DNA of 43,817 nucleotides from Prevotella sp. (lineage in GTDB: Bacteria > Bacteroidota > Bacteroidia > Bacteroidales > Muribaculaceae), in contig JAMPBN010000007.1 of NCBI GenBank assembly GCA_023666665.1, positions 1 to 43,817 on the forward strand. The letters are read 5' to 3'. Below, piece after piece: positions 37,440-43,817 of this stretch. The position numbers were made by a program, and so were the translations under genes. The notes beneath the pieces were generated by a model, which saw nothing but the letters and a program-made list of their open reading frames with translations, was not told where the DNA came from and searched no databases. Every line of letters starts with the position of its first letter. Position 1 is the stretch's first letter.

Positions 37440-39810
37440 TTTTAGTCGCTTTATTACCTTGCAATTTAATATATATTCCCTTGGTAGTGGGATTTGCTAC
37501 CGGGCGACCTTGAAGGTCGTAGTACGTTGCAGCTGCGCAGTTATTGGATTCAATCTGCTGAATCGAGTCTTTGTGCAATGGAGTGAAGAAATCCGGATCA
37601 TCACCATTGCCCGTGAGTGGGGTGGTATATAGATTTTCTCCCTTTTTCTGATAGCAGCGAACGTAGTCAAATTGAGTCAAATACGTGTGGGTGAGATCCG
37701 CCCATTGAGCCCATGCACCATTGCCAACGCTTTGGTTAAGTATTACGTAGAAGTCTTTATAGAACGGCCAGCAAATCTCGGCAGTGTAATTTGTGCCCTC
37801 TTCGGAGTAGTGCATATTTTTATATGTGAATGAAACCTTGCCGTCAACATACCAAGTCAACATATCTTCTGTCCATTCAAGTGCGTAATAATGCCAGGCG
37901 GCCATATCGTCAACTGTAACACTCCCAGAGCTTGTGGGCGAACCTACTTTGGGGCCTTCAGTCCAGCCGCAATAGTTTTTCCAGCCGGTCCAGCCGGTGT
38001 GTACGGTGGCGTGAGCCTTATCTTGGGCATCTATCTGCTCCCAAATATCTATTTCGCCGCTGCGTGGCCATCCTCCCTCGGCGTTAGTTTCAGGCATCAG
38101 CCAAAAAGCAGGAAAGTTGCCCTTGAACGGATGTGTTTTTATTCGGGCCTCGATGCGACCGTAATGGAAATGAAATTTTCCTTGTGTGTTAATCGCTCCG
38201 GAAATCATAGCCTCTGATTCAGAGGGGAACTCTTCTTTGTCCGTGGGTACACACCACGAGTTGTAATAACCGTTGCCAAAAGTATTTACGGTCTCACCCT
38301 CCGCATCGCCTACTGCACAGTAGCGATTCCACGTTGCGTTATATCGCGGTTGGTAGCCCCAGGTTGTTTTGTTGAGATTGTCGGTATTAAACTCGTCGCC
38401 CCAAATCTTAGTCCATTCGCTGTCGGCTTGTTCTTCAAAAAGGCCATAGATTATAACATCGCCGCTAATAATTTCGGCAGGTATGGTTGCGAGTCCATCG
38501 GCTGAAATCGCCACCTCTGTATCTTGACGACTTTCACCCTGGCCGTGACGCACAATCAGATGATCTGCTGTAAAACCGGGAAGCGAAGCCTCAACCTTGA
38601 GTTCGATGGAATAACCTGCTGCAAGAGTTTCGGGCACAGGTGCGCCGCTCGAAAGGGTTATCATACAGTTGAGCGGCATCAGTGTAATGGTTGTCGTTTC
38701 AATGTCATCACCCAAAACGTTCAGAGTGAAGTCGGTAATTGAACCGCCATTTTCAAGAATATTATCGGAGCCGGCTGCATCGGCATTGTCCCAATCAATT
38801 TTTGCACGGCAACGATATTTGCCGGGAATCAAGTCAGAGGGTAGGGCGAAGGCAGGTATCTCGTTAAGATATTCGCCTTTGTTGGTTTGACCAAGGGAAT
38901 TTTTATTATTAACGTGTGAATACGCCATAATATCAGTACCGGGAACGGGAACACCTGCAGCCGCAATGTCAGATAAGAAATCACCGTTTCCGTCGCGGTC
39001 AATATAAACATATGAGTTCATCCAGGTTCCGGTCCAGTCGAAATTAAACTGAATTTGCCCGCCGGGGAGAACGTCAACTTCCTGGTCAGTGCAATCGTGA
39101 TATAGCAGCTTGTCTTCACTTTGTCCTACTTTAATTGACTGCATACCAAGCAACGGCTGCGTTACATTAATGTTATGAAGACGGCGCTGATTGTGAGTGA
39201 TAGTCGTTTCGGGAGTATAGTTAACTGCGTATTTATTCTCAGGCTGCACTGCAGGGGCGACGCGCAACGTGGCATCAACGATTGCGCCGTCGTTTTGAAT
39301 GATGGTATTGGTTTCACCAAAACGACCGCCGGGTTCCGACGAGTCCCAGTCAATAATAAAGCGTACGCGATAATCACCGGCAGGCTGCGACGCGGAAAGC
39401 ACGAAAGGATGAAGTGTTACATTGCAGTCATCTTTAACTGTTAAACCGAGTGAGTTAACACCTTGAAAATATGAAAAAGAATAAAGCTCAGAGGGATAAT
39501 CAAATTTTCCATCATTATTGAGGTCAGCATAAAAATATCCATGCATATACGTGCCGTTCCATGTTATGACAGGCGTGATGGCGGTACCAGCTGTTACGTC
39601 AAAGATTGCCGATGTTGAGAAGTCGTGATATAGCAACTTGTCAGTTGCCTGAGGCACATCAACGATATTTTCACCAATGCCCACACCGGTTATAATACGA
39701 CTTGGGCGGGCTCCCGAAATCTGTGCATCGGCAGGAAAATTGATTTCATAGTCTGCCATTACCGGAAGTGCAACACAGACTCCGAGGAGTAGAGTAGATA
39801 TTCTATTCAT
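37429..39810 (-). CDS. Secreted GH16 beta-glucanase with duplicated N-terminal domain and sorting-tail-like C-terminus
   Basis: The 793-aa protein has a signal peptide (MNRISTLLLGVCVALPVMA). Two tandem copies of a domain of about 170 residues follow, marked by DKLLYHDFSTS / DKLLYHDCTDQ and FYADLNNDGKFDYPSE / VYIDRDGNGDFLSD, which are GEVED-like. A linker leads to a GH16 catalytic domain (about 480-745) with the signature E586-I-D588-I-W-E591 (nucleophile and acid/base) and the WPRSGEIDIWEQI context. GH16 enzymes cut beta-1,3/1,4-glucans and related polymers. The C-terminus (YYDLQGRPVANPTTKGIYI, then KIVR) resembles a type IX sorting tail. It has a strong consensus promoter and overlaps the sigma gene by 11 nt. 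An unusual point is that a glucanase leads an envelope-stress regulatory operon. Confidence 0.9.
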   Translation of the reverse strand: MNRISTLLLGVCVALPVMADYEINFPADAQISGARPSRIITGVGIGENIVDVPQATDKLLYHDFSTSAIFDVTAGTAITPVITWNGTYMHGYFYADLNNDGKFDYPSELYSFSYFQGVNSLGLTVKDDCNVTLHPFVLSASQPAGDYRVRFIIDWDSSEPGGRFGETNTIIQNDGAIVDATLRVAPAVQPENKYAVNYTPETTITHNQRRLHNINVTQPLLGMQSIKVGQSEDKLLYHDCTDQEVDVLPGGQIQFNFDWTGTWMNSYVYIDRDGNGDFLSDIAAAGVPVPGTDIMAYSHVNNKNSLGQTNKGEYLNEIPAFALPSDLIPGKYRCRAKIDWDNADAAGSDNILENGGSITDFTLNVLGDDIETTTITLMPLNCMITLSSGAPVPETLAAGYSIELKVEASLPGFTADHLIVRHGQGESRQDTEVAISADGLATIPAEIISGDVIIYGLFEEQADSEWTKIWGDEFNTDNLNKTTWGYQPRYNATWNRYCAVGDAEGETVNTFGNGYYNSWCVPTDKEEFPSESEAMISGAINTQGKFHFHYGRIEARIKTHPFKGNFPAFWLMPETNAEGGWPRSGEIDIWEQIDAQDKAHATVHTGWTGWKNYCGWTEGPKVGSPTSSGSVTVDDMAAWHYYALEWTEDMLTWYVDGKVSFTYKNMHYSEEGTNYTAEICWPFYKDFYVILNQSVGNGAWAQWADLTHTYLTQFDYVRCYQKKGENLYTTPLTGNGDDPDFFTPLHKDSIQQIESNNCAAATYYDLQGRPVANPTTKGIYIKLQGNKATKIVR

Positions 39811-39832
39811 ATTTAAAAGATTTTAATTCGCA

Positions 39833-39864
39833 CAAATTTACGAAATTTTTATCGAAAAATCAAA
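39833..39864 (-). promoter_or_regulatory. Promoter of the GH16-sigma operon
   Basis: On the minus strand TTTG (39864-39861), a 20-nt spacer and TAAATTTG (39840-39833) match both consensus elements exactly, 22 nt before the GH16 ATG at 39810. Confidence 0.8.
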
Positions 39865-39923
39865 ATACAATTTTCTTAACATACATTAACATCCATAACC
39901 ACTAATTTGTTAAAAAAAAATAC

Positions 39924-39931
39924 TAACTTTG
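39924..39931 (+). promoter_or_regulatory. -7 box for the tRNA-Ser unit
   Basis: TAACTTTG matches TAnnTTTG. A TTTG at 39906-39909 is only 14 nt upstream, closer than usual. Transcription from here would include the tRNA half copy and then the full tRNA-Ser. Confidence 0.5.
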
Positions 39932-39962
39932 CACTCGCTTTACGAAGCTACCATTTACTTGA

Positions 39963-40002
39963 GGAGTGATGCTCGAGTGGCTGAAGAGGCACGCCTGGAA
40001 AG
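39963..40002 (+). pseudogene. 5'-half copy of tRNA-Ser
   Basis: This 40-nt stretch matches the first 40 nt of the complete tRNA-Ser at 40040 in 37 positions, covering the 5' acceptor strand, D arm, 5' anticodon stem and loop. The match stops 2 nt beyond the anticodon; the 3' anticodon strand, T arm and 3' acceptor strand are missing. It cannot make a tRNA. The break at the anticodon loop suits a recombination or old attachment site. Confidence 0.75.
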
Positions 40003-40039
40003 TCTATTTTCCACCCCTCGGACACCACTGAAAACATTA

Positions 40040-40127
40040 GGAGAGATGCTCGAGTGGCTTAAGAGGTACGCCTGGAAAGCGTATATAGGCCAAAAGCCTA
40101 TCCCGGGTTCGAATCCCGGTCTCTCCG
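40040..40127 (+). tRNA. tRNA-Ser(GGA)
   Basis: The 88-nt gene folds into a type II tRNA: acceptor GGAGAGA/TCTCTCC, anticodon stem TACGC/GCGTA with loop CTGGAAA (anticodon GGA), long variable arm TAGGC/GCCTA, and T arm CCGGG-TTCGAAT-CCCGG. The 3' CCA is not encoded (GCA follows the acceptor strand). It reads UCC and UCU codons. It lies next to an integrase gene, a common attachment situation. Confidence 0.95.
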
Positions 40128-40130
40128 CAA

Positions 40131-40181
40131 TAAAACACTGACAATCAGGCTATAACAAAAGGTCTTTTTGTTAGTGTTTTA
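40131..40181 (+). terminator. Hairpin after tRNA-Ser
   Basis: TAAAACACTGACAA (40131-40144) pairs with TTGTTAGTGTTTTA (40168-40181) with one mismatch. A nested TAACAAAA/TTTTGTTA pair (40153-40160/40166-40173) offers an alternative stem. The 3' T-rich strand suits transcription termination after the tRNA. Confidence 0.55.
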
Positions 40182-40391
40182 TCTTTTAAGACCCATTTCA
40201 GGCGTCGCATCCATGCCATTTAATGGTTTTAAAAAAAATCCCCCAAGTACGATTTATGCAGATTGGTTGACGACCGTTTCCGATACCTTGACGAAAAAAA
40301 TGCGCAAAAAATGCGCAAAAAATTTTTCAAGTTTTTGAAACTAAGTTGCTGATTTTCATAATGAGTATGCAAGGGATGCCGCAAAACCGCT
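40182..40391 (+). other. Non-coding leader of the integrase, possible att-arm region
   Basis: These 210 nt hold no credible gene. They contain CCATT-T-AATGG (40216-40226, a small dyad), two TTGACG copies (40267-40272, 40288-40293) and the tandem AAAAAATGCGC repeat, followed by an A/T-rich stretch. Clustered short direct repeats before an integrase gene are the usual look of arm-type integrase sites, but this is inference. Confidence 0.4.
40295..40316. repeat. Tandem 11-bp direct repeat AAAAAATGCGC x2
   Basis: Two exact adjacent copies (40295-40305, 40306-40316), followed by AAAAAATTTTTC, lie 76 nt upstream of the integrase ATG. Confidence 0.8.
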
Positions 40392-41639
40392 ATGGCAAAA
40401 TTGAAATTCTACCTCGACGCTCGTCATGTGAGCGTCAAAACGGGCGAAGCTCCCCTGAAGCTCGCAGTGACTCACCTCAGCCGAACCGCCTACATTGGCA
40501 CCGGCATCAGCCTTGACCCCAAATATTGGGATGTCAAGAAAGAGAAGGTCGTTGGCCACCCTCAAAAGAAGTCGCTCAACGACAAAATCGATGCAAAACG
40601 CAGCGAGATGGTGCTCGTCTTTCAGCAGATTGAGGCTGAAATCAACATCGATGCCCTGTCTGCCAACGAGATTCGCGATGAAATTCTCCTGCGTACAACC
40701 AACAAGCGCGTCAATGTCAAGGACGAGAAAAGCGTTGTGACTGTCTTCAAGAAGTTCATCGCACTGAAATCAGGTAGCACGGCCTCAATCTACTCGCGCA
40801 CTCTCGCTCATATTCAGCAGTTTGAGGGTAAGTCTGCCGACAAACTGCGTTTCGAGCAGATAACCAAGGAGTGGCTGATGCGCTTCGACCAGTTCCTGAT
40901 GCGCTCGTGTCCGTCGGCCAACACTCGCGCCATCAATATGCGCAACATTCGTGCCGTCTTCAACTTTGCGATAGACAACGAGATAACTACTGCTTATCCG
41001 TTCCGTCGCTTCAAAATCAAGGGTGAGCCGACACGCAAGCGCAACTTCGATGTGGAGACACTGCGCTGCATCTTCAATGCCGACAACCTCGAACCGTGGA
41101 TGGTGAAGTACCGCGACCTTTTCAAGCTGACGTTTATGCTCATCGGCATAAACATCGTGGACCTCTGCCACCTCAAAGAGATGCGCAATGGCCGTATAGA
41201 CTATATACGAGCCAAGACCCGCAAGCTCTACTCCATCAAATTGGAGCCGGAAGCAGAAGAAATTATCGCCAAATATCGGGGCGATAAACAGCTGCTTAAC
41301 TATCTGGACACCTATAAAGATTATAGGAAGTTCTACAACAATCTGTGCAAGGGCCTCAGAGCCATCATGGGTCTCGTCAACGAGAAGTATGGCACAGAAA
41401 TCGACACGCTCTCAACCTATTGGGCACGTCACTCATGGGCTACAATAGCGGCAAGTCTCGACATACCTAAAGAGACCATAGCCGCCGGACTCGGCCACAG
41501 CAGCCACTCGGTTACTGACATCTACATTCAGTTTGACCCTCGCAAGGTCGATGAAGCCAATCGTCGTGTCCTCAATTACGTCCTCTATGGGTGGGAAGGA
41601 GGCTATAATCCCGATGATGCAGCCGCAAAAAAGCGTTAG
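40392..41639 (+). CDS. Tyrosine recombinase / integrase (Bacteroidetes phage-integrase type)
   Basis: The 415-aa protein has an N-terminal arm-binding-like region (KFYLDARHVSVKTGEAPLKL), a SAM-like core-binding domain (about 110-210) and a C-terminal catalytic domain. Catalytic residues visible are R346 (YWARHSWAT), H369 (AAGLGHSS) and the nucleophile Y378 (TDIYIQF). The first catalytic Arg of the standard GLRxxEL motif is not present: the equivalent reads IGINIVDL (around 251-258). The HxxR His is replaced by Tyr, a change I recall in many Bacteroidetes integrases. It should integrate or excise the element that begins here, using the nearby tRNA-Ser. A 12-bp repeat array starts at its stop codon. 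Confidence 0.9.
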   Translation: MAKLKFYLDARHVSVKTGEAPLKLAVTHLSRTAYIGTGISLDPKYWDVKKEKVVGHPQKKSLNDKIDAKRSEMVLVFQQIEAEINIDALSANEIRDEILLRTTNKRVNVKDEKSVVTVFKKFIALKSGSTASIYSRTLAHIQQFEGKSADKLRFEQITKEWLMRFDQFLMRSCPSANTRAINMRNIRAVFNFAIDNEITTAYPFRRFKIKGEPTRKRNFDVETLRCIFNADNLEPWMVKYRDLFKLTFMLIGINIVDLCHLKEMRNGRIDYIRAKTRKLYSIKLEPEAEEIIAKYRGDKQLLNYLDTYKDYRKFYNNLCKGLRAIMGLVNEKYGTEIDTLSTYWARHSWATIAASLDIPKETIAAGLGHSSHSVTDIYIQFDPRKVDEANRRVLNYVLYGWEGGYNPDDAAAKKR

Positions 41640-41756
41640 GATTGTCGCTCCCATAAGTATTTCGGTTGGCACTCGGATAAGCCCTCCGATATGTGTTCCG
41701 AAATGCGTTCGGTTTTCCGTTCCGATAATCGTTCTTAAATGCGATATGATAGGCGT
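41637..41756. repeat. Degenerate 12-bp tandem array, ten units
   Basis: Ten consecutive 12-mers share the consensus TCCGATANGCGT, with T1 invariant, G4, A5, T6 and C10 in eight of ten, and C2, A7, G9 and G11 in seven. The best copies are TCCGATATGTGT, TCCGAAATGCGT and TCCGATAATCGT (41685-41732). The first unit begins on the integrase TAG. A further weak unit may lie at 41625-41636 (GCAAAAAAGCGT). Read in one plus-strand frame it would encode a loose P-I-x-V repeat. No known element is recognised. Confidence 0.8.
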
Positions 41757-41783
41757 TTGAAGCCCCAAAATAGCGTTCGTAGA

Positions 41784-41821
41784 TAGCAAAAAGCCGCTCC
41801 GATGTGGGGCGGCTTTTGCTA
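41784..41821. terminator. Bidirectional terminator between integrase and tail gene
   Basis: TAGCAAA plus AGCCGCTCC (41784-41800) pairs with GGGGCGGCT plus TTTGCTA (41806-41821), with one bulged A, one T-G wobble and a 5-nt loop. A/T-rich outer stems give U-rich ends in both directions. It serves two convergent genes. Confidence 0.85.
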
Positions 41822-41845
41822 TAATATGAAGTGCGGAGTCGTAGG

Positions 41846-43660
41846 TCAGGAATCCTTGACCGGGTAGAACACTCCCTTGACCAATTCTGACATGCCGTTC
41901 TCCGTGAACGTGCATGTCAGCTTCTCACAGATGTAGCGTTTGCCTTTGATGTAGAAGATGGCGCGGACGTTGGGGATGGTATCGGAGAGGAACTTGAAGG
42001 TGGTCTTTTGCTTGGGTTCGATTTGTGGAGCGATGCGTTTGTTGATTAGGCGGCGGTTGATGCGGAGGTTGAAGTGGGCGTTGGTGTAGCCGCTCCAATC
42101 ATCGGCAATAATGACATCTTCAGTCCAGGGGTACGGCAACTTGCCGTTTGTGTTCTGCGCACCATCCCAAAAGCCGATATAGATGCGGTCGTAATACTCG
42201 GCTTTCTTTTCTTGTTCACCGGCGGCAAGTGATTCTGTGGTACGGGTCTTCAGGAACGGATATTGGCTCTCGTCCTCGCTCTCGATGCCAGTGTCTTCGT
42301 CATAGCCGGAGAAATTGAGGAACATGCATCGTCCATACTTCGCCTCGGTATCGTCTATTCTTACAGGTACAAATTCAATTTCGTCCTGGTCGGCATCTTC
42401 GGAGTCATCAATGATGCGACCACCAAAAAGATTGATTGGGCGCAAGATGCATTTGTAAGTGAAGTTTATGCGACCAAAAGAAATTGACGATACCGTTCTA
42501 CTTACACTCTCTATTATAAAGTGGCAATCAACATTTTCGGCATAGAAGATTTTGTCGATATTGCTGTCACGCCCTCTGCGTCCATCCCAATATCGGTAGC
42601 CTTTGAGGTCTTTGAGGATGTCGCTAAGGCTCTCATACCTCACTATTCGCCATTGATTGCCTTTGATAAACCAATCGCATGAGTAGTATTTCCAAGTGTC
42701 GTGGTCACATTCCTTATACACAAGGTTCTTCATCACCGAGTATTCACATTTATCGTCCTCCACCTTTACCTCTGTTGAATGGTCTTCAATGACGTTTTGC
42801 AGTTCTACGGGTGGCGTAGATCTCAAAACGTTTTCGGTAAAGTGGAAAGAGATACGCTTTGCCCGGTGGTCGATGGTAAACTCTCCTTGCAGAAAGAGTT
42901 CAAGCTTCTCGAAGTATTCCTCGACCGTCCAGTGAGGCATAGCCCGCGCAAAGGCCGGCAAATACCAGGCGTGAGGCAAGGTGTTGCAGATGAGCAGGTA
43001 TTTATATTCCTCCTTATTATCCCACTCGTCAAAGTCGGTTGAGTAGCCGATAGCTTCACATATTTTGCGAGTGATATATATAAGGTATGGTTGCCACGAC
43101 AAGCCGGTGATGTCATTCGACCAGGAGTAGTATGCGTTGGAGACCAATACTCCATTGTTTCTGACTTCGGGGTGATAGTCGACAAGATTCTGAATGTTGC
43201 CGGAATAATCGTTCACCCACGGCAGCGCAACGCAGTTGGGATTGTAAATCGGGCTCCAAGCCCTTTCGGGAGTAACAGCCGATTTAGACGTGGTGGGAGG
43301 CGTACCGAGGTCAAGCTCATTGATATAGAGTTTGTCAAAAGTCTTGTCAAAGTTCTGTTCCGAGCGACCGTCGAGGAACTGCGTCTTGACCTCTGACTCG
43401 TTAATTTCGGTAACAGTTATGCAGCCGAACTTGTAGAAGCTCTTGTCGCGTATCTCACAGTTGAATATACACCGTTGGGCAATGACATCGGCTCGGTTGA
43501 TATGGCCGAAGATAGCGATATTCTGAGGGCAATCTTTCAGCGGAAAGGTAATTGTCAGTGTGTAGCCATCGCTACCGCTGAACATTCTGTTTTCACTGAC
43601 GTACTCGAAGCTCGTTCCCTTTTTAAGGGCAGCGAGTTTATTGTCAACGTATATTTGCAT
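41846..43660 (-). CDS. Probable phage tail/baseplate protein
   Basis: The 604-aa protein starts MQIYVDNKLAALKKGTSF, has no signal peptide, and is rich in Tyr, Trp, Asp and beta-strand-like segments (YTLTITFPLKDCPQNIAIFG, GFWDGAQNTNGKLPYPWTED). It ends in a region that looks like a beta-sandwich (YICEKLTCTFTENGMSELVKG). I recall similar proteins downstream of tape-measure genes in Bacteroides prophages, but I see no named domain. The gene overlaps the upstream partial gene by 1 nt (TAATG), as in phage late operons, and converges on the integrase. A conjugative-element or host surface protein cannot be excluded. Confidence 0.55.
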   Translation of the reverse strand: MQIYVDNKLAALKKGTSFEYVSENRMFSGSDGYTLTITFPLKDCPQNIAIFGHINRADVIAQRCIFNCEIRDKSFYKFGCITVTEINESEVKTQFLDGRSEQNFDKTFDKLYINELDLGTPPTTSKSAVTPERAWSPIYNPNCVALPWVNDYSGNIQNLVDYHPEVRNNGVLVSNAYYSWSNDITGLSWQPYLIYITRKICEAIGYSTDFDEWDNKEEYKYLLICNTLPHAWYLPAFARAMPHWTVEEYFEKLELFLQGEFTIDHRAKRISFHFTENVLRSTPPVELQNVIEDHSTEVKVEDDKCEYSVMKNLVYKECDHDTWKYYSCDWFIKGNQWRIVRYESLSDILKDLKGYRYWDGRRGRDSNIDKIFYAENVDCHFIIESVSRTVSSISFGRINFTYKCILRPINLFGGRIIDDSEDADQDEIEFVPVRIDDTEAKYGRCMFLNFSGYDEDTGIESEDESQYPFLKTRTTESLAAGEQEKKAEYYDRIYIGFWDGAQNTNGKLPYPWTEDVIIADDWSGYTNAHFNLRINRRLINKRIAPQIEPKQKTTFKFLSDTIPNVRAIFYIKGKRYICEKLTCTFTENGMSELVKGVFYPVKDS

Positions 43661-43817
43661 TATTTTTTGGATTTGGGTGATTTGTTGCGCATAAGGAGGT
43701 CATATTCATCCTGGGCCTGTTGGATGCCGTGATCGCCGGACACGGTGTTCACGGTAACAAACGGCTCATTCAGACGCAAGTCAAGCCTGTCGAGGACTGC
43801 GACCATTCTTTCATCGT
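43660..43817 (-). CDS. C-terminal end of an upstream phage gene (possibly tape measure), partial
   Basis: An open frame enters from the window edge and ends at TAA (43662-43660), which overlaps the next ATG as TAATG. The visible 51 residues include DRLDLRLNEPFVTVNTVSGD, HGIQQAQDEYDLLMRNK and a Lys/Ser-rich end (SPKSKK). The composition and position just before a tail protein gene suggest the end of a tail tape-measure or related protein. The assignment is inference; the coding nature is supported by the coupled overlap. Confidence 0.55.
   Translation of the reverse strand, partial: DERMVAVLDRLDLRLNEPFVTVNTVSGDHGIQQAQDEYDLLMRNKSPKSKK

Follow-up and report, generated by a model that had tools for sequence, protein, structure and literature searches.

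The arm-type sites of lambda-family tyrosine recombinases are direct repeats that lie near int and are hypervariable between elements. Mycobacteriophage stoperators are repressor sites located in short intergenic regions, where they block transcription; they have one orientation and diverge between immunity groups. Iterons and par centromeres consist of tandem direct repeats of ~11-12 bp. Finally, the available text of a report on BldC and RdfS describes proteins that form head-to-tail filaments on direct repeats (PMC11963761). Here, we analyzed a contig of 43,817 nucleotides from Prevotella sp. (JAMPBN010000007.1, positions 1 to 43,817, referred to below as the window), in which a degenerate array of 12-bp repeats follows a tyrosine integrase gene. 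Arm-type sites are similar to this array in their pitch (mostly 11-12), proximity to int and hypervariable letters; however, they precede int and are exchanged along with the arm domain, whereas the array follows int and is not. Stoperators are scattered single sites, whereas we observed one tandem array per element and, in scans of two prophages, no repressor. Unlike iterons and par centromeres, the array lies between the converging operons of an integrated phage, and no replication or partition gene was seen in the two-prophage scans. The sites of wHTH filament proteins (BldC, RdfS-type) resemble it in having direct repeats or degenerate sites, a loose sequence rule and, for RdfS, a mobile-element setting (PMC11963761). 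In contrast to RdfS-type sites, the array is behind the integrase gene rather than in attP and has a fixed 12-bp pitch with up to 15 units.

The window array spanned 132 bp (41628..41759, + strand) and contained 11 units in the register of its relatives, with the core GYGnTnC on the integrase strand (GCGTTCC in the window). An earlier note on this DNA had described ten 12-mers at 41637-41756 that begin with the integrase TAG. These units were present as described, with an unbroken phase; the 12-bp phase from the TAG was correct but the start point was not, as the array began one unit earlier with AAAAAGCGTTAG (41628-41639), which covers the final integrase codons and the stop. T1 occurred in 10/10 units, as the note had it, but eight rather than seven further positions were conserved at the level of at least 7/10 (C2, G4, A5, T6, A7, G9, C10 and G11, each kept in 7 or 8 of the ten units). 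The summed period-12 information was 12.0 bits, compared to 3.03 ± 0.67 in 5000 dinucleotide shuffles; sequence of the same composition never matched the array (maximum 6.05), and the highest period-12 score elsewhere within the 43.8-kb window was 7.76. The period-12 array is thereby confirmed as real. With usual penalties, TRF detected it only partly (41685-41743, score 39), and the sole match of the array region in its own genome was itself.

The element is inserted beside a tRNA-Ser (GGA) gene at 40040..40128 on the + strand (ARAGORN; Rfam tRNA 40040-40127, 55.6 bits). A degenerate partial tRNA-Ser copy was observed just upstream of the intact gene (39967-40029), and similar fragments were found in G104, the nearest relative of the window element (integrase 86% identical). 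Direct repeats of 11 bp (AAAAAATGCGC, 2.6 copies, TRF) at 40295..40323 on the + strand are the presumed arm-type sites, and we infer that they are bound by the integrase. The integrase gene itself (415 aa, 40392..41639, + strand) encodes arm-binding (PF17293), core-binding (PF13102) and catalytic (PF00589) domains, the PF00589 match being below the Pfam cut-off; one integrase of this type was present in the genome. Behind the array, in the interval before the next gene, we found a bidirectional terminator-like hairpin (41792..41815, locus L002) with -15.4 kcal/mol on the integrase strand and -13.2 on the other. The 27-bp gap previously reported between array and terminator holds if the A/T tracts of a longer stem from ~41785 are included, the hairpin located by our script being at ~41792-41815. 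The convergent gene that follows (604 aa, 41846..43660, - strand) had no Pfam or PHROG match. In G104, its homologue directly follows a tape-measure gene of the same orientation, suggesting that the 604-aa gene probably codes for a tail protein at the end of the late operon. An endolysin-like amidase gene occurs farther along in G104, which together with the tape-measure gene gives the appearance of a siphovirus-like prophage. Since the window is the entire contig, the element extends past the contig end. A second homologue of the tail gene, 41% identical, was detected in the same genome (G000 contig C1, 1359-3326, L131); by eye, no gap separates it from a neighbouring frame that resembles a different integrase.

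We further examined the occurrence of such arrays among relatives. The window integrase as sole query revealed no close relative in genome contigs or viral contigs, and relatives were obtained by a whole-genome search, which at E <= 1e-40 identified 128 places in 101 of 397 genomes of the family (probably Muribaculaceae). All but the 26 weakest places were fetched, giving 106 oriented integrase loci including repeats, 96 of them distinct. From these we left out L045 (too little downstream sequence) and four loci with an integrase frame of <380 aa; one of the four was G380, whose array was plain in a separate scan. An array was present in 46 of the 91 scored loci at z >= 4.65, a cut-off chosen after the scores were known so as to exclude L015 (4.6; signal inside the tail gene). 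The same cut-off was passed by 7 of 180 control windows, scored with 12 shuffles each versus 30 for the loci. The best period among 9 to 15 was 12 in all 46 arrays. Thus, the comparison with relatives that the earlier note had proposed revealed 12-bp arrays of the same phase behind related integrases. Where the tail gene was in place, the array was found in 42/46 loci with a gap of >20 bp and in 0/16 loci in which integrase and tail gene abut. The gap loci without an array call were L007 and L060 (both with weak 12-bp repeats by eye), L079 (4.5) and L108, whose tail gene is 2270 bp distant. In two other loci (L105 and L101) the array was present, though no tail-gene homologue was seen within ~2.9 kb. 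The array was the top period-12 place in seven scanned stretches (G350, G251, G211, G376, G312, G380 and the window); in G104 it was surpassed by a GC-rich stretch at 50.6 kb, which may be coding.

Among 99 further loci (80 of one set and 19 of another 80), only L382 and L225 reached an IC of 1.0 with period 12. Six phage records contained no array, and no clear array was seen in five of six IMG/VR relatives of the tail gene, the sixth being truncated. In six order-wide tail-gene loci (five from other families and one from the window's genome), the integrase-like frame, by eye, reaches the tail gene without a gap. Among the titles and abstract openings listed in literature searches, there was no publication on such arrays.

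The cores differed between elements (for example, GTGTACC, GGTGCC, GTGATG, GCGCTTCC and GTGTAAC), and array size ranged from 5 to 15 units. To compare them, 39 arrays of at least 6 units were collapsed into 27 groups and, with L004, gave 28 non-redundant arrays for alignment; the shorter arrays L027, L076, L082, L041, L031 and L043 were excluded. Similarity between the 28 arrays was 0.431 on the same strand and 0.280 on opposite strands, compared to 0.356 ± 0.007 (maximum 0.397) for a random-flip null, and the aligned information was 4.02 bits, compared to a null maximum of 2.78. The motif common to these arrays, read on the integrase strand, was WGYGnTnC (core GYGnTnC) in every 12 bp. This strand was T-rich (T > A in 21/28), and the flanks were balanced. 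Within individual arrays, column conservation was uneven with p<0.05 in 23/46. Like known filament sites, the arrays are direct repeats of fixed pitch and one orientation.

Rho utilisation follows a spacing rule with a pitch near 12 nt, C over G and an excess of YC on the transcribed strand. The array has such a pitch and a recurring C, and could be viewed as a Rho site that places one YC per 12 nt onto the Rho hexamer. However, YC dinucleotides numbered 388 on the integrase strand against 389.9 expected (236 against 289.8 on the other strand), integrase strands with more C than G were limited to 13/28 arrays and the top conserved letter was G, all of which render a Rho site extremely improbable. 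Alternatively, the units could make RNA polymerase pause on the integrase strand and so slow transcription ahead of the terminators; as every host has a polymerase, this reading would account for an array that is linked to no phage gene. The E. coli pause consensus is given in the available text of PMC6062546 as G-11 G-10 T-3 G-2 Y-1 G+1, and the core G-Y-G matches its 3' half (Y 0.87, G+1 0.84 and G-2 0.51). In contrast, G-10 was depleted (0.09) and G-11 reached only 0.19, and in 13/46 loci a terminator-like hairpin of the integrase strand precedes the array. We consider pausing improbable.

Several pairs of elements have exchanged modules around the array. In L004 and L005, the integrases are nearly identical from approximately residue 101 and the arrays are identical, whereas the arm domains and arm repeats differ. 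Residues 1-100 and the upstream repeats were exchanged together in this pair, a natural domain swap that pairs the repeats with their reader. In two other pairs (L055/L085 and L059/L068), array DNA was 93-100% identical per 60-bp window and the DNA after the array 87-98% and 97% identical, respectively, whereas the integrases were only 57-72% identical by domain. In L013/L041 and L084/L017, tail-gene DNA was 82-100% identical per window (mostly >90%), but the array stretches were only 33-63% alike. Exchange breakpoints thus occur at both array edges. The array is kept or swapped apart from the integrase and the tail gene, and is therefore tied to neither neighbour; it behaves as a cassette of its own, independent of the integrase arm domain, the catalytic domain and the tail gene. 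In the array-tail gene interval of L013 and L041, we also observed three ACTTGCGCATNG-like repeats with a pitch of 12, which look as if the arm-type sites of some other integrase had been left behind on the incorrect side of int.

These exchanges bear on the possibility that the array provides additional arm-type sites for the integrase itself. It adjoins int, and the repeats upstream of the relatives' integrases, which have different letters, occupy the same place as in the window and are of similar pitch (mostly 11 or 12). But an identical array accompanies different arm domains and repeats in L004/L005, near-identical arrays accompany divergent integrases in L055/L085 and L059/L068, and the fit of array motifs to the arm or att regions of the same element was not superior to their fit elsewhere (z 0.37 ± 0.22 against own arm repeats in 27 groups). 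The earlier note had listed the recombinase among its candidate binders; binding by the integrase arm domain is accordingly very unlikely. Target tRNAs also varied (Ser, Val, Pro, Gly, Arg and Met, with a tRNA in 20 of 22 loci scanned), and near-identical arrays were found beside tRNA-Gly (L053) and tRNA-Arg (L085). A search for attR by direct repeat in eight stretches, several of limited length, yielded no repeat of >13 bp.

In six groups of close relatives, 19/360 core columns varied compared to 38/360 spacer columns (p=0.012); no reference column was deleted in relatives, and the count ignored insertions relative to the reference. The signal came from two of the six groups, the window/G104 pair (4/54 versus 15/54) and L050/L058/L062 (2/78 versus 9/78), and the other four showed 7/84 versus 8/84, 4/42 versus 4/42, 1/60 versus 1/60 and 1/42 versus 1/42. 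By shared column, substitutions were commonest in spacer columns 3 and 4 and in core column 8. The earlier note had taken a single phase in divergent units as a hint of selection, and this suggestion gained support from the single phase, some constraint on the core and the arrays of the same phase in relatives. Its companion argument, that the units are too divergent for slippage, was only partly borne out: L055 and L085 have one 12-bp unit more than L052 and L053, a unit gained or lost whole between close relatives. Gain or loss of whole units keeps the phase, and whole-unit duplication indicates that slippage contributes.

A protein-coding repeat was considered and rejected, as array substitutions fell on the three codon positions in a 21/22/22 ratio (counted over non-independent pairs) with no third-position excess and the best forward frame carried stops in 17/46 arrays. 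The frame relative to the integrase also varies, and the eroded P-I-x-V peptide that had been suggested for the window array is not supported by these observations.

Slippage and past coding capacity are combined in an explanation that we regard as doubtful but still worth serious attention, namely a minisatellite or former tetrapeptide-coding repeat of little or no function that recurrently arises 3' of integrases and decays. Some related integrases are followed by tandem arrays with a pitch of 9-11 (L107, L092, L253 and L296), and the whole-unit difference between L055/L085 and L052/L053 is of the kind expected. Neighbouring units were more alike than units at least 3 apart in 27/46 arrays (equal in 4, less alike in 15), and the frame from the conserved G was stop-free in 29/46. 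A scan of viral contigs for the four-unit motif also matched at least 120 stretches, and among the matches listed the motif was inside a long open frame in 75/80 contigs, indicating both that 12-bp repeats of this kind are often coding and that the scan is not specific. On the other hand, decaying repeats would not readily account for the single orientation and register of the 28 arrays, the overall core constraint or the even codon positions. The drop in similarity with lag was slight in most arrays (an excess of at least 0.10 in 7; 0.54 at lag 1 versus 0.53 at lag >=3 in the window), and despite repeated gain or loss on the integrase tree (at least 7 changes) the best period remained 12 in every array.

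Action at the RNA level, in the form of a regulatory 3' UTR of the integrase mRNA, was another suggestion of the earlier note. It was weakened by terminator-like hairpins on the integrase strand that come before the array in 13/46 loci, and by the lack of consistent folding on either strand (average z -0.83 on the integrase strand and -0.14 on the reverse, with single arrays down to -5.9). Hairpins of this strand were found after the array in 11 loci and within it in 10. Between the array and the tail gene, 37/46 loci had a terminator-like hairpin on the tail strand. An Rfam search over 39800-43817 yielded only the tRNA above the gathering score, rli42 at 41731-41820 scoring 18.1 bits against a threshold of 80. 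On the basis of the early hairpins, unremarkable folding and lack of an Rfam family, we favour a DNA site over an RNA. For the host RNA binder RbpB, the available text of PMC11697453 describes a motif of 41 nt that belongs with a family of sRNAs; nothing in it resembled the array.

AT-hook-like C-terminal tails, such as KKRGRPRK, were observed in 12 of 16 integrases that abut the tail gene (for example, at the C-termini of L009, L015, L016, L019, L020, L037 and L064). Hook tails and arrays were never found together: none of 17 hook integrases had an array, and all 46 arrays followed hookless integrases. In a rapidly built tree of 91 rows, covering the core-binding and catalytic portion of the integrase, array presence changed 11 times, at least 7 of the changes being forced by well-supported branches, and AT-hook tails changed 8 times. 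The mutual exclusion would fit an array that is bound by a directionality factor of the Xis, Cox or RdfS type, or by some other architectural factor, and acts on att ~1.5 kb away, with AT-hook integrases having no need for it. Head-to-tail binding of such factors to short direct repeats is described in the available text of PMC11963761. However, the exclusion was not significant once kinship was respected (7 independent pairs, on average 1.8 opposite and 5.2 without difference, a test that cannot reach significance). In addition, the array is located at the end of int, far from the attachment region, its motifs were no better on their own att and arm regions than on others, and no factor gene was found in the two-prophage ORF scans. 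A directionality factor site is thus unlikely.

The explanation that we tentatively prefer, and consider possible, is that the array is a selected set of direct repeats on which a protein assembles head to tail into a filament, insulating the integrase from the late operon. The array has a definite period, position and orientation, a common motif and some constraint on its core; we infer its DNA binding, the filament and the insulating role. According to this model, 5 to 15 DNA sites, directly repeated with an exact 12-bp pitch, would be under selection and would form a cassette that is exchanged independently, with the integrase on one side and the convergent tail operon on the other, in tRNA-linked siphovirus-like prophages of this family. 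A protein would occupy each GYGnTnC core, head to tail, with neighbours touching to form a short filament. The filament and the flanking terminators would separate the two converging transcription units, such that late transcription is kept from the integrase gene and integrase transcription from the tail genes. Roles other than insulation fit equally well.

The flanking genes probably do not encode the binder, which is more likely to be a host factor or one found throughout these phages. Because letters differ strongly between arrays, a single binder would need loose specificity, or there would be several binders. Pfam and PHROG scans of two array-bearing prophages (67/82 called ORFs) detected no convincing repressor, directionality factor or oligomerising DNA-binding protein; these scans used crude gene calling and undefined right ends, with 25 of 26 and 25 of 27 families listed. 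The listed families included a holin, an endolysin, a weak portal match and one weak HTH hit (E 0.006). A sigma-factor gene and other genes in the two prophages are probably of host or cargo origin. A comparison by eye with array-less prophages gave no candidate gene confined to array-bearing ones.

More generally, and with similar reservation, such arrays may represent a class of prophage cis elements: modular, fast-drifting direct-repeat filament sites that combine a rigid pitch and orientation with free letters, occupy their own cassette between int and the late operon and are dispensable with an AT-hook integrase. If so, the temperate phages of a common gut family, Muribaculaceae, would carry a portable DNA platform that is selected for its spacing and direction and not for a fixed sequence, an unusual recognition rule. 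The array would also mark a recombination joint between phage modules. Natural experiments are provided by pairs in which the swap was limited to the arm domain or to the integrase.

Additional repeats were noticed during these searches. The motif scan revealed non-coding GTGTAAC and GTGTATC arrays resembling those of the family in two viral contigs, L389 (~111-153) and L430 (~2453-2495). In L382, many copies of AAGTGGTCTAA were located ~70-700 bp downstream of the integrase, first at a pitch of ~12-13 bp and, farther on, once per longer repeat (~41 bp) with a small hairpin. Other arrays downstream of integrases (L253, L296, L107 and L092) were an 11-bp GGGGACTTTYA repeat, 9-10-bp GTGTATTGGT-like repeats, a 9-bp CACATATCT repeat and a 10-bp TGTAAACCTG repeat. 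In Bacteroides phage Versailles (L117, ~1600-2100), a near-palindrome, TTTTGCCTAAGCAAAA, was present in many copies behind the integrase. Finally, the last 30 integrase codons of L057 encode a four-residue repeat (SKGA/SKGV), so that this locus has another stretch of period 12, here in the reading frame of int.
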